This document shows positions 3,318-10,437 of a stretch of DNA of 64,000 nt, in pieces (the stretch's first letter is position 1; each line of letters starts with the position of its first letter). Source of the stretch: Saprospiraceae bacterium (lineage in GTDB: Bacteria; Bacteroidota; Bacteroidia; Chitinophagales; Saprospiraceae); NCBI GenBank assembly GCA_020629515.1, contig JAHDDE010000013.1, positions 22,072 to 86,071 on the forward strand. The letters run 5' to 3'. Below the pieces are notes generated by a model, which was not told the DNA's origin, searched no databases, and was given only the letters and a program-made list of their open reading frames with translations. Both the position numbers and the translations under genes were made by a program.

Positions 3318-4982
3318 TTAGAGCTTGAAATGCTTAAGAATCTGAGATCCTTTGGCAGTATTCAGTTTAATCATATATAGCCCCGGGGCCCATGAATCTG
3401 ATGAGAGGGAAATTTCATTTTTAAATGCACCTGTCGATATTGATCTACCATTGAGATCATATACATAATAGAGAATATTGTCAGTAAGCTCTGATCGGAT
3501 GGTAAAAGTGTGATTTGAGGGGTTAGGGTAGGTGTAACTGATATTAGTGTCTGTGATATTCTTATCACTAACTATGAGATCTCTTAAAGTAAAATCAGTT
3601 CCGATTGAATTAGGCTCATAATCTACACCTGGAATAAAGAAACTTATTTCATCATGAAAATCCTTGTATCTAAAGGCTGAATCTGTCAAAGTCAATTCAA
3701 TAGTTTCATTAGGAGCTATAGATCCTTCAAATAAATGAGAAAAAAAGCTATATGTAGGTCCAATCGGATTAAAATAGTCGGTGCTATAAAGGTTAAATGA
3801 ATGCACAGTATCGATTCCTAAATTACTTATCGAAAACTTCATTGTAATATTTGCATATGTCCCCTCTCTTTGACTGATTGCTTCGAAAGTTGCATTGTCG
3901 ATTGTAAGAAATTTATTATGATTTATCTGAATAGAATCTTCAATCTCTTTAGTAGTTGTAATGATACTTCGATTAAAAAAACTTCGATCATTTAATCCCA
4001 GTATATAAATATCATCACTTTTGGCGATTGAACTTATACTAAAACGATCAAGATTTGGAGGAGAAATATTAGAAATATTCCAAAGAGAATCCACTCTCCA
4101 TATCTCCTGTTTTCTCTGGGAAGACCCATAGTTATCAATCAACAAAATAATTTCATGATCATTTGTATGGTAGTTTTGGATATTGCGATTATCGAAAGGA
4201 AGATCTCTGGAATCATTTTTAATGCTAAAGCCTACTTTTGATGTGTCTAAGCTATAAATATCTAACTTGTTTTTTTTGAAATGCAATTGATATACATCTT
4301 TAAATAGGATTACGCTTTCTCGGTGATCAACAGTGAAAGTGTCTATTTTAATTACTCTTTCATTATTCCTATTAATCAAAAACAGTTCTTGATTATTATA
4401 TAAGAAAATGTTGCCCGATTGATCTGTAAGTAAATGATCATTGTATAATGACTTAATCAAATGTATTATATCTCTATTTGATTCAGATATTAGAGGATAA
4501 TCGCTGCCTTCAAATTCTGCTAAGCAGAAGAATAGGTCGGTACTAAAAGCACAATGACTAAAATCTGTTTTAAAGTCTAATGATTTTATATCTTCTGTGC
4601 TATACTCGGTTCCGTCATGGTTAAATTGAACCATATTAAATGCTGGAATGTCATAATCTATCATTCTGAAGAGAAATAAATCTAAGCTTCCACTACTATC
4701 TTTTCTATAAGATTGGTTTAGATGCCAAAATGGACTTTCATGCAGCTTTAAAGTATATCCTTCTGGTTCTATCCAATAGATTCCTGAACCACTATGAAAA
4801 TTTTCGTTTTGGGAGTAGATTAATCCGTTTTGATGGGGTATTAAAGTTGTGATTTGAGAATTGTAGTTCGAACTATTACAATAATCGTTTGATTTTAAAA
4901 ATGAAAGATTAGAATTATCCTGAGAAACAACATTATCCCAAATAAAGAAAACCAGGGAGATGATAAGATACTGAACTTTCAT
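3318..4982 (-). CDS. Secreted protein with type IX C-terminal sorting domain
   Basis: A 554-residue exported protein. It begins with a signal peptide (MKVQYLIISLVFFIWDNVVSQ) and ends with a type-A T9SS sorting domain: YPNPSNHTFTIRSE, then YYVYDLNGR, then APGLYMIKLN and a final KHFKL. The middle (residues 30-350) is rich in aromatic and beta-strand-like segments with no catalytic motif I recognise. Residues about 360-460 look like an immunoglobulin-type or CARDB-like fold (ISNLGIDTVHSFNLYS). It is expected to be cleaved and anchored to, or released from, the cell surface. It is downstream of the acidic lipoprotein and the Fec-type operon but separated by two terminator-like hairpins, so co-transcription is doubtful. 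Confidence 0.8.
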   Translation of the reverse strand: MKVQYLIISLVFFIWDNVVSQDNSNLSFLKSNDYCNSSNYNSQITTLIPHQNGLIYSQNENFHSGSGIYWIEPEGYTLKLHESPFWHLNQSYRKDSSGSLDLFLFRMIDYDIPAFNMVQFNHDGTEYSTEDIKSLDFKTDFSHCAFSTDLFFCLAEFEGSDYPLISESNRDIIHLIKSLYNDHLLTDQSGNIFLYNNQELFLINRNNERVIKIDTFTVDHRESVILFKDVYQLHFKKNKLDIYSLDTSKVGFSIKNDSRDLPFDNRNIQNYHTNDHEIILLIDNYGSSQRKQEIWRVDSLWNISNISPPNLDRFSISSIAKSDDIYILGLNDRSFFNRSIITTTKEIEDSIQINHNKFLTIDNATFEAISQREGTYANITMKFSISNLGIDTVHSFNLYSTDYFNPIGPTYSFFSHLFEGSIAPNETIELTLTDSAFRYKDFHDEISFFIPGVDYEPNSIGTDFTLRDLIVSDKNITDTNISYTYPNPSNHTFTIRSELTDNILYYVYDLNGRSISTGAFKNEISLSSDSWAPGLYMIKLNTAKGSQILKHFKL

Positions 4983-5164: not shown

Positions 5165-6136
5165 TTAATCCATTTCAAATTCTCCACATATTTCTTCAAC
5201 GGCATCTTCGAGGTCATCTTCGTCCTCAGTGGTAATGGTTGAGCCGTCAGCGAGAAAGGTTATATCAATAGGGAATACCAATTCTACCTCCTGATCATAT
5301 TCTAATTCTTCTAATGCCATAAATAATTCGTCCAAGCTATTTATGGAAGTGGTCACAGAGTCATCGGTGATATATTCAATAGGGTATACAAAATCAAAAC
5401 AAGAGCCTAAGACATCTTCTTCATCAGTATAGCATGATATAAGCGCTTCTTCGAGGTCTTCATCGTTTTCGATTACTAATACTTCACCGCTGATGATATC
5501 AGTTAATTCAATTGGATAAATTATTTCTGCTGAATTTGGCTCTGATTCTCCGAGGTTATAGAGTTCTTCTATATTGTTGACAGTAACATTTGAAGAATCT
5601 ATGATCAATTCGATAGGAAAAGAAATATCAAAACAGTCATTAATATAATCTGCGATATCCTCTAATTCTTCTTCCTCATATTCTTCTTCATAATCTTCAT
5701 AATCCTCGTCATCACCATAGCATTCGTGCAAGATGTCGCATAGTTCCTCTTCAGAGTTAATCGAGCGAACAGATCCATCCGCCAAAGTGATGTCTATCGG
5801 AAATTGGAAAGTCGGAAATTCTTCGCTTTCTGGATTTTCTATCAACCATTGATCGATGTAGTCGTACAATTCTTGATCTCCTGATACTTCTTGAGAGGAG
5901 TTGTTGGGATTGATTAAAGTAATGGGATAAACGAAGGTATAGCATTCATCTTCGAGATCCGACTCATCTTCATCCGTTTCTGTAGAGTCACTTCTGGTGG
6001 CGATTATTGAAAATGAGGAATTCTCTGTGACATTAGTTGTAGGAATAATAGGATCATTTTCTCCTTCACTACAAGACATGATAAATCCTGATAGGGTTAA
6101 AATTGTGAATAGCTGGGCAAACCAATACTTGTGCAT
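5165..6136 (-). CDS. Very acidic lipoprotein built of six degenerate repeats
   Basis: A 323-residue predicted lipoprotein: hydrophobic leader and lipobox GFIMSC, cysteine at about residue 22. After a short linker the protein consists of six units of 30-50 residues, each opening with an aromatic-Y/F-P-I-x-I/L strand (FVYPITL, FQFPIDI, ISFPIEL, IIYPIEL, FVYPIEY, LVFPIDI), then an acidic turn, then an N/D-S-x-E/D-E-L helix start. Most units carry cysteines at the repeat junctions. A DEDYEDYEEEYEEEE stretch follows unit 2. It lies 150 bp downstream of the TonB receptor of a sigma/FecR operon, so it may be an accessory surface protein of that system. The acidity suggests cation binding, but no EF-hand is visible. 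Function is unknown. Confidence 0.75.
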   Translation of the reverse strand: MHKYWFAQLFTILTLSGFIMSCSEGENDPIIPTTNVTENSSFSIIATRSDSTETDEDESDLEDECYTFVYPITLINPNNSSQEVSGDQELYDYIDQWLIENPESEEFPTFQFPIDITLADGSVRSINSEEELCDILHECYGDDEDYEDYEEEYEEEELEDIADYINDCFDISFPIELIIDSSNVTVNNIEELYNLGESEPNSAEIIYPIELTDIISGEVLVIENDEDLEEALISCYTDEEDVLGSCFDFVYPIEYITDDSVTTSINSLDELFMALEELEYDQEVELVFPIDITFLADGSTITTEDEDDLEDAVEEICGEFEMD

Positions 6137-6286
6137 GATGTAATATTTTATTGTTTAATTAATGAGTCCAACCATCGTGATGGACCTTTTTAGAGATAGG
6201 TAGAAGTGATCCTTATATAGAATTATTTGCTGTTTTGCCTCTAAACAATCAAAAGAGAGATTTCCCCTATGCTTAAATGAAAAAAA

Positions 6287-8867: not shown

Positions 8868-9830
8868 CTATTGACAACTGCCTTGAGTCAATGAATATTT
8901 ACCGTCTCTTATTAAAAGCTCAGCATTATATAATACCGCAATATTCTGCAATGCTTCATCTAAGGTCAACCGATTCATATTACCACTAAATACACATTCA
9001 TTTATGTAGCTTTCAATCTCTATTGATACTCCATGATAATTTTCTAAATCCTTGATCACCTCAGATAGCTTCGATGAATTGTAGATGAATTCTATAGGAT
9101 ACCACGATTGATTATTGAGAGACAGGCCATTAATTACCTTTTCTCCAGATGCTTGTAAGTTATATCGTTGGTTGGCTGTTAGGTTCGTCTGAGTTTGAGC
9201 TGCCTTATTATTTATATTGACCTTTCCTTCTATAAGTTGTACTTCGGCAGAATAGTCATCAGGGGCATCCGACATTATAAATTGCGTCCCAAGAACGGTT
9301 ACTTCTATACTAGCTCCGTCAATAACGAATGGATTGCCACTCATTTTAACTACATCTAAATATGCTGAACCTTTTAATTCCACTCTTCGATTTTTATGAA
9401 AAGAGTCCGTGTAAGTTAGTGTACTTCCTTTTTTGAGTGATATTTTAGACCCATCTGTCATTTGAACCATTTGATTGTCCTCATTTGCCTCAACTGTATA
9501 GACTTTTTCTTGAGTCAATAAAAACATGGACGCTAAAAGTATAGTTACACCAGCTGCAAGACCAACTAGCCAGCGAATGTTGAAAGATTTTTTATTCGCT
9601 ATTTTTTTATTAAGAATGTTCCACTCTTTATCATTGTCAATGGTCAGTGAAGAAGTATTAATATCATCAACTTCCCAGGCGGTTTTGATATCCTCATAGA
9701 AATTTTGGTTATCTTCTACGGACAACCATTTTTTCAGTTGATCTGCCTCTTCTTGGTTAAGAGTATTGTTGAGACTTTTCTGTATTAGCGGTATGTAATG
9801 ATCTTCATTCATATTTCTATGATTATACAT
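8868..9830 (-). CDS. FecR-family anti-sigma / signal relay protein
   Basis: A 320-residue inner-membrane protein. The N-terminal cytoplasmic part (about residues 1-85) resembles the anti-sigma region. One helix follows (WLVGLAAGVTILLASMFLL). The periplasmic FecR domain comes next, with VQMTDGSKISLKKGSTLTY, VELKGSAYLDV and VTVLGTQFIM, and the C-terminus is a DUF4974 region (SEVIKDLENYHGV). It should hold the neighbouring ECF sigma factor and release it when the TonB receptor binds ligand. The ATG at 9830 overlaps the end of the sigma gene by 8 bp; an ATG at 9812 is an alternative without overlap. Confidence 0.9.
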   Translation of the reverse strand: MYNHRNMNEDHYIPLIQKSLNNTLNQEEADQLKKWLSVEDNQNFYEDIKTAWEVDDINTSSLTIDNDKEWNILNKKIANKKSFNIRWLVGLAAGVTILLASMFLLTQEKVYTVEANEDNQMVQMTDGSKISLKKGSTLTYTDSFHKNRRVELKGSAYLDVVKMSGNPFVIDGASIEVTVLGTQFIMSDAPDDYSAEVQLIEGKVNINNKAAQTQTNLTANQRYNLQASGEKVINGLSLNNQSWYPIEFIYNSSKLSEVIKDLENYHGVSIEIESYINECVFSGNMNRLTLDEALQNIAVLYNAELLIRDGKYSLTQGSCQ

Positions 9831-10437
9831 ATAACAATTGAAATGTGAATATCCCCCATAAAATAACTAGGAGGACAAAAGATACTGTATGAGATTGATA
9901 GGTTCTTACAGCGGTTCTGAGTGTTTTTAGTGCTTTTGTAATTTGATTTTCAATTGTTTTAGTTGAAATGTCTAAAATCTCAGCCACTTCCTTATGAGTC
10001 ATACCATCTTGCTTGCATAGCATGTATATCTGTTTACATCTCTCTGGGAGCTGGTCAATCGTAGACTGAATCACATCTCTGAGTTCATTGAATTCACTTT
10101 GTTCATCAGGCTGGAGATTTTTTTCTTTTATTGTTGTTAATGGCGTCTGTCCGGCTCCAATATGGTGTGATCTGCTTTTTATGATGTTAAGTGATCTATT
10201 AATAGTTGACCTTCTTAGGTAGGGCTCTAATTTTATATTTTCTGGAAGTTTTGTTCTGTTTTTCCATAATGCCAAAAATACCTCTTGAACCGCATCTTTA
10301 GCTAGCTGTTCTTCACGTACTATCTGGTAGGATCTAATAACTAATGACTTAAAATATTGATCAAACACCTTTCTAAAGGCGCTATAGTCACTAATTTTTA
10401 TTTTGTCCAGTAAGTTGTCATCTATATGCTGTGTCAA
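9823..10437 (-). CDS. ECF RNA polymerase sigma factor (FecI-like)
   Basis: A 204-residue sigma-70-family ECF factor. Region 2 is visible at residues 15-85 (RSYQIVREEQLAKDAVQEVFLALWKNR). Region 4 is at about 120-180, with QLPERCKQIYMLCKQDGMT and the helix-turn-helix HKEVAEILDISTKTIENQ. The protein then ends in a hydrophobic helix of about 19 residues (SFVLLVILWGIFTFQLLYV), which could tether it to the membrane near its FecR partner. It is first in the sigma-FecR-receptor operon and probably activates it. Confidence 0.9.
   Translation of the reverse strand: MTQHIDDNLLDKIKISDYSAFRKVFDQYFKSLVIRSYQIVREEQLAKDAVQEVFLALWKNRTKLPENIKLEPYLRRSTINRSLNIIKSRSHHIGAGQTPLTTIKEKNLQPDEQSEFNELRDVIQSTIDQLPERCKQIYMLCKQDGMTHKEVAEILDISTKTIENQITKALKTLRTAVRTYQSHTVSFVLLVILWGIFTFQLLYV

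Follow-up and report, generated by a model that had tools for sequence, protein, structure and literature searches.

A Bacteroidota repeat lipoprotein family with a predicted ECF-type promoter motif in common with FecR-TonB receptor genes

Introduction

In Bacteroidota, TonB receptors and FecI-like sigma factors without known ligands are numerous. Surface lipoproteins are paired with TonB receptors in this phylum, as in SusC-SusD and RagA-RagB, and SusE and SusF are binders built of tandem domains. The closest described regulatory system is that for ferric citrate in E. coli, where the FecI sigma factor drives the receptor promoter and fecIR itself is under sigma-70 control (PMC9249621).

We analysed a 64,000-nucleotide stretch of Saprospiraceae DNA (the window) that encodes an ECF sigma factor, a FecR protein and a TonB receptor, as does FecI-FecR-FecA, together with a repeat lipoprotein, REP (Table 1). 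As in E. coli, the sigma factor is predicted to drive the receptor promoter, and the promoter motif described below is absent from the ECF genes at FecR-type loci, like the sigma-70-controlled fecIR; unlike E. coli, here FecR falls within the predicted regulon, to which the gene for a surface lipoprotein adds another dedicated target. REP resembles the Sus and Rag lipoproteins in being a probable Bacteroidota surface lipoprotein that accompanies a TonB receptor, and SusE and SusF in its tandem domains, but it matches none of SusD, SusE and SusF, its domains are smaller, Cys-bracketed and made of two halves, and its gene has a separate and often divergent promoter. What is new here is that REP and FecR-receptor genes have a predicted ECF-type promoter motif in common.

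Table 1. Features of the REP locus, in window coordinates
Feature	Position	Strand	Remarks
Repeat lipoprotein (REP), 323 aa	5165..6136	(-)	Cys22 lipobox and signal peptide, ~40-aa disordered tether, three ~75-aa domains
REP domain 3, residues 246-317	5186..5401	(-)
REP domain 2, residues 168-235	5432..5635	(-)
REP domain 1, residues 65-139	5720..5944	(-)	three strands - helix - two strands - helix, predicted, pLDDT 92.9
Signal peptide and lipobox Cys22, then acidic SEGEND	6071..6136	(-)	from sequence
Predicted ECF-type promoter of REP	6240..6269	(-)	TAGGGGAA-N13-TTGTTTAGA
TonB-dependent receptor, 859 aa	6287..8866	(-)	weak STN-like N-terminal domain, CarbopepD_reg_2, Plug
FecR-type anti-sigma/sigma regulator, 320 aa	8868..9830	(-)
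ECF sigma factor, 204 aa as called	9823..10437	(-)	Sig70_bacteroi1 (TIGR02985)
Predicted ECF-type promoter of FecR-receptor	9831..9858	(-)	TGGGGGAT-N13-TTGTTAT; within 3' end of ECF gene

Results

The receptor operon

The window sigma factor scores 138 bits against TIGR02985 (cut-off 126.4) and is of the FecI-like Bacteroidota type; its neighbour is a FecR protein, matching PF04773 (E 3e-12) and FecR_C (E 1.8e-8); and the third gene encodes a TonB receptor with plug, having PF07715 and PF13715 above cut-off. The receptor N-terminus resembles STN weakly and below cut-off (E 0.0037); among 14 receptor N-termini, STN was detected in 3 (best 2.8e-9) and FecR_C in 12. All three genes lie on the REP strand, in agreement with the operon context proposed in an earlier, sequence-only reading of the window. 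REP is also adjoined by a gene for a 554-aa protein that ends in a T9SS sorting domain (3318-4982, minus strand), which is not a regular REP neighbour elsewhere.

Export signal and domain structure of REP

The lipobox of the window protein reads IMSC, with Cys22 as the lipid anchor, and the mature chain (pI 4.05) contains 94 Asp or Glu residues as against 2 Lys or Arg, so that its description as a hyperacidic lipoprotein stands. Lipoboxes are present in 118 of the 123 REP proteins examined, 65 of the 118 having Lys at +3, and positions +4 and +5 are acidic. At family level this matches C-X-K-(D/E)2-X, the signal for export of lipoproteins to the Bacteroidota surface (LES; PMC5080379). The window copy matches it in part, its post-Cys SEGEN being acidic without Lys at +3. 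The signal makes it likely that REP is exposed on the cell surface; the surface location suggested earlier is thus strengthened for the family and less so for the window copy itself.

The six repeats and the recurrent boundary cysteines noted in the sequence-only reading are both recognizable, the repeats as half-units. Six [FY]PI strands begin at residues 70, 112, 173, 207, 251 and 288, and the Cys pairs 65/139, 168/235 and 246/317 bracket three two-half units, Cys133 being extra; it is the pair that folds and evolves as a unit, which gives three domains. Aligned with relatives, the unit of ~75 aa reads C-x4-[FY]-P-[IV] ... W.x.NP ... [FY]-P-[IV] ... DG ... eEL ... C. Its two halves are homologous by hhalign profile comparison (probability 98.7%, E 3e-16), and L042, a distant relative, consists of consecutive half-repeats without Cys. 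Conservation is strongest at Pro and Cys, not in acidic clusters, the invariance of both in alignment A1 being partly built in by the search pattern; among 177 units of an HMM-based set, collected with a model trained on the same kind of units, 100% have a Cys at the start and 98% have one close to the end.

AlphaFold2, run on 121 unit sequences, predicts a confident small domain (pLDDT 92.9, pTM 0.75) of three short strands, a helix, two strands and a helix. In the model of the full mature window protein a disordered tether of ~40 residues follows the lipid anchor, and three folded domains are joined by linkers of pLDDT below 50 (pTM 0.35). The question of whether the units stack as a solenoid or hang as beads is thus answered by prediction in favour of separate beads, each domain probably braced by a disulphide between its paired cysteines.

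Searches for relatives of the REP domain

No Pfam or NCBIfam model matched REP above its curated cut-off, SusD/RagB included, a PDB sequence search gave no significant match, and Foldseek searches of PDB and BFVD returned nothing at E<=0.001; neither kind of PDB search linked REP to SusD/RagB. The earlier remark that no named repeat family is known with this pattern is therefore supported, and the domain appears to be undescribed in Pfam, NCBIfam and PDB. A literature search found no description of the lipoprotein or of its regulon.

Several weak matches were judged to be chance: Pox_C7_F8A, pre_pil_HX9DG, Paratox, Imm53, and adiponectin and tyrosine-tRNA ligase chains. Rib, PB1 and Protein L B1 domains are like the REP unit small, strand-rich and of similar size, and matched 1-2 of 44 single units at E 0.001-0.05 in Pfam; the fold search gave no support and these matches too were put down to chance.

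Distribution and neighbourhood of REP genes

Scanning genome contigs with a single REP protein gave no matches and a 44-unit alignment was too diverse; a two-unit alignment succeeded. REP is present in 75 of 120 Saprospiraceae genomes and, at phylum level, in 28 of 297, mostly from one second family, f5. The proteins have 2-5 units, and some carry DUF4382 or an additional domain at the C-terminus. The units lie behind DUF4382 in L153 (5190-6167; Pfam E 2.6e-16) and behind a DUF4382-like domain, identified by sequence resemblance only, in L192 (597-2204).

Conservation of the gene neighbourhood with signalling TonB receptors, which had been put forward as a check, proved strong, in counts that are not independent because the loci are related by descent. 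The association rates are likely to be underestimates, since ECF, FecR and receptor genes were labelled with models derived from a few neighbours, which probably miss some members. In f5, all 20 sampled REP genes adjoin an ECF-sigma system, 17 of them divergently from ECF-FecR-TonB receptor; the other 3 adjoin an ECF gene and one for a ~520-aa protein, in one case with a weak outer-membrane barrel match. In the Saprospiraceae set an ECF gene is adjacent to REP at 29 of 81 loci as against 2 of 246 control genes. The ECF gene sits mostly in the first upstream position, at offset -1 from REP in 24 of 73 loci, and almost never past offset 5. More than half of Saprospiraceae REP genes had no ECF gene detected within 4.5 kb, on contigs that are short, many of them ending near REP, and with conservative ECF calls.

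Within the window-like subset, ECF, FecR or receptor genes lie within 4.5 kb of REP in 13 of 21 cases, and the order ECF-FecR-receptor-REP on one strand is found in L176, L178, L181, L182 and L188 of this acidic group. A common Saprospiraceae layout has REP divergent from an ECF gene followed by those for a ~155-aa HELGHC lipoprotein peptidase, FecR and the receptor. Of the four REP loci in the window's own genome, two adjoin a FecR gene, of which the genome has only seven, and another adjoins an ECF gene. Small lipoproteins unrelated to REP likewise stand at the end of other ECF-FecR-receptor operons in this genome (L148 4371-5027, L151 2284-3219).

The HELGHC lipoprotein, whose gene separates ECF from FecR in many Saprospiraceae, is present in 62 of the 120 genomes; its matches to metallopeptidase families are all sub-threshold. 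Alignment A5, with the example L007 14144-14608 (+), has an invariant HELGHC-x-L-x-x-x-H and a conserved Cys. In L138, L142 and L143 a ~480-aa vanadium-haloperoxidase/PAP2-like lipoprotein (Pfam on L142) is encoded downstream of REP.

REP also adjoins a second type of ECF system, which has no TonB receptor, and the receptor is therefore not its sole context. At these loci (L008 1562-3494, L161, L168, L170, L190, L193, L194) the ECF gene stands beside one for a 460-560-aa protein whose C-terminus weakly matches an outer-membrane barrel (L008 and L161 tested), perhaps a single-protein trans-envelope anti-sigma factor.

Promoter motifs of REP and FecR genes

Regions upstream of REP genes contain ECF-type two-box motifs of fixed spacing: TAGGGGA[AT]-N13-[AT]TGT[CT] in the window group, TAGGGTAA-N12-YTGTYTTA in f5, and GAGTACA-N16-CTT[AT] in many other Saprospiraceae. 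With the second ECF class the motif is TGCAACC...ACCTAA, which also faces the ECF gene; the REP-ECF intergenic regions of L079, L084, L086 and L087 hold two inverted TGCAACCCCTG...ACCTAA-like promoter copies, one facing each gene, and that of L079 an additional tandem GGGGTCATTT-like array. The REP motif recurs upstream of the gene that follows ECF, be it FecR or, where present, the peptidase.

The window-group motif precedes 9 of 21 REP genes, 6 of 9 FecR genes and 1 of 110 other genes (shuffled rate 0.0003). TRGGGGA-N14-TTGTT has exactly two matches in the 3.9-Mb genome of the window, at REP and FecR (control 0); the pattern was derived from this locus and its relatives, and the informative part is therefore the absence of a third genomic site. 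The TAGGGGA pattern has a notable control rate in other Saprospiraceae genomes. As a genome-wide pattern in the window's genome, GAGTACA-N16-CTT gave 9 matches as against 10 in the control, and therefore none but the two at the REP/peptidase locus of C23 were taken as real.

A motif scan of ten f5 genomes gave 17 matches (control 0), all intergenic and immediately ahead of genes, in most cases REP or FecR. The others precede a tRNA_anti-like/DUF5777/haem-binding-like/YceI cluster (two genomes), a Lipoprotein_15 protein (one genome) and a ~150-aa secreted protein (two). Genes for the tRNA_anti-like protein, DUF5777 barrel, haem-binding-like lipoprotein and YceI are found at L282 322-2563, L283 7067-9295 and L287 2747-5735, where they follow the same ECF motif or lie on the REP strand, downstream of it.

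With matrices that had been trained on REP promoters alone, 15 of 17 FecR promoters, at -43 to -48, scored above the 99th percentile of the remaining upstream regions (p 1e-11), as did 12 of 15 peptidase promoters (p 9e-8). In G091, REP and an ECF-FecR-receptor operon are on different contigs and have the motif in common. On these sequence grounds it is highly probable that REP, FecR and the receptor belong to one regulon, driven by the neighbouring ECF factor.

Discussion

Because their promoters match, REP and the receptor operon are probably co-expressed and partners. We consider it an evenly balanced proposition that REP serves a cell-surface signalling receptor of the FecI/FecR/FecA-like kind as its surface-lipoprotein partner. 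By analogy with the FecIRA pathway, a ligand would engage the TonB receptor, whose N-terminal signalling domain would act through FecR on the ECF sigma factor. The latter would then transcribe fecR-receptor and rep as two units with the same type of promoter, a step to which the motifs lend good support. Lipid-anchored REP would, from its export signal and the structural model, reach the surface as three domains, probably braced by disulphides and strung on flexible linkers, and there capture or present ligand to the receptor. This last step is the least certain: co-regulation with a single receptor and the tethered, multi-domain layout suggest it, yet we put it at slightly under an even chance, and co-regulation fits other jobs too, such as adhesion, masking or service as a peptidase substrate.

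One such job would be restraint of the receptor, REP being an ECF-controlled output that covers it or acts as a decoy against phage, bacteriocins or excess ligand, in a feedback loop. A common regulon, the surface lipoprotein signal and the variable unit number would all suit this role, but no sequence or fold relation of REP to known proteins was found and REP also lies beside ECF systems that have no TonB receptor; we think it improbable.

A cation-binding surface protein, which would collect divalent metal for or around the receptor by means of its acidic helices and of linkers rich in acidic residues or His, appears comparably improbable. The extreme acidity of the window subfamily, the His-rich linkers seen in some relatives and the presence in two f5 genomes of the same promoter before the DUF5777/haem-binding-like/YceI cluster speak for it. 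Against it, the positions most conserved are not acidic clusters, and acidity is not a family trait: pI is below 4.5 in 21 of 21 proteins of the window-like subfamily and 16 of 20 from f5, but the wider Saprospiraceae set has a median of 4.66 and a maximum of 8.0. Hyperacidity thus mainly marks the window-like subfamily and f5, and the capture of cations proposed in the sequence-only reading is not supported in that form, because many REP relatives are not strongly acidic.

That REP is an adhesin or structural lipoprotein of the envelope, merely timed by the ECF system, accords with its beads-on-a-string layout and with the joining of its domains to a C-terminal domain or DUF4382; it too seems unlikely, since the rep and fecR-receptor promoters are tightly paired, with few other targets per genome, which suggests a dedicated function. 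It is very unlikely that REP is a substrate or signal of the system, with the HELGHC peptidase cutting REP or a ligand on it: peptidase genes bear the REP promoter motif and 54 of the 62 peptidase-bearing genomes also have REP, but the window and f5 loci lack the peptidase and copies of it occur away from REP.

More tentatively, REP may represent a new family of surface binding modules, possibly of a new fold, that replace SusD-like partners. It would form a TonB-receptor/lipoprotein pair with its own ECF sigma factor in at least two Bacteroidota families, sometimes accompanied by a lipoprotein metallopeptidase, in Saprospiraceae, or by a DUF5777/haem-binding-like/YceI cluster, in f5. A lipoprotein family that is widespread and has its promoter in common with one type of receptor offers a handle on an orphan receptor class, and with a small regulon predicted to the base, rep expression can be followed to seek the ligand.
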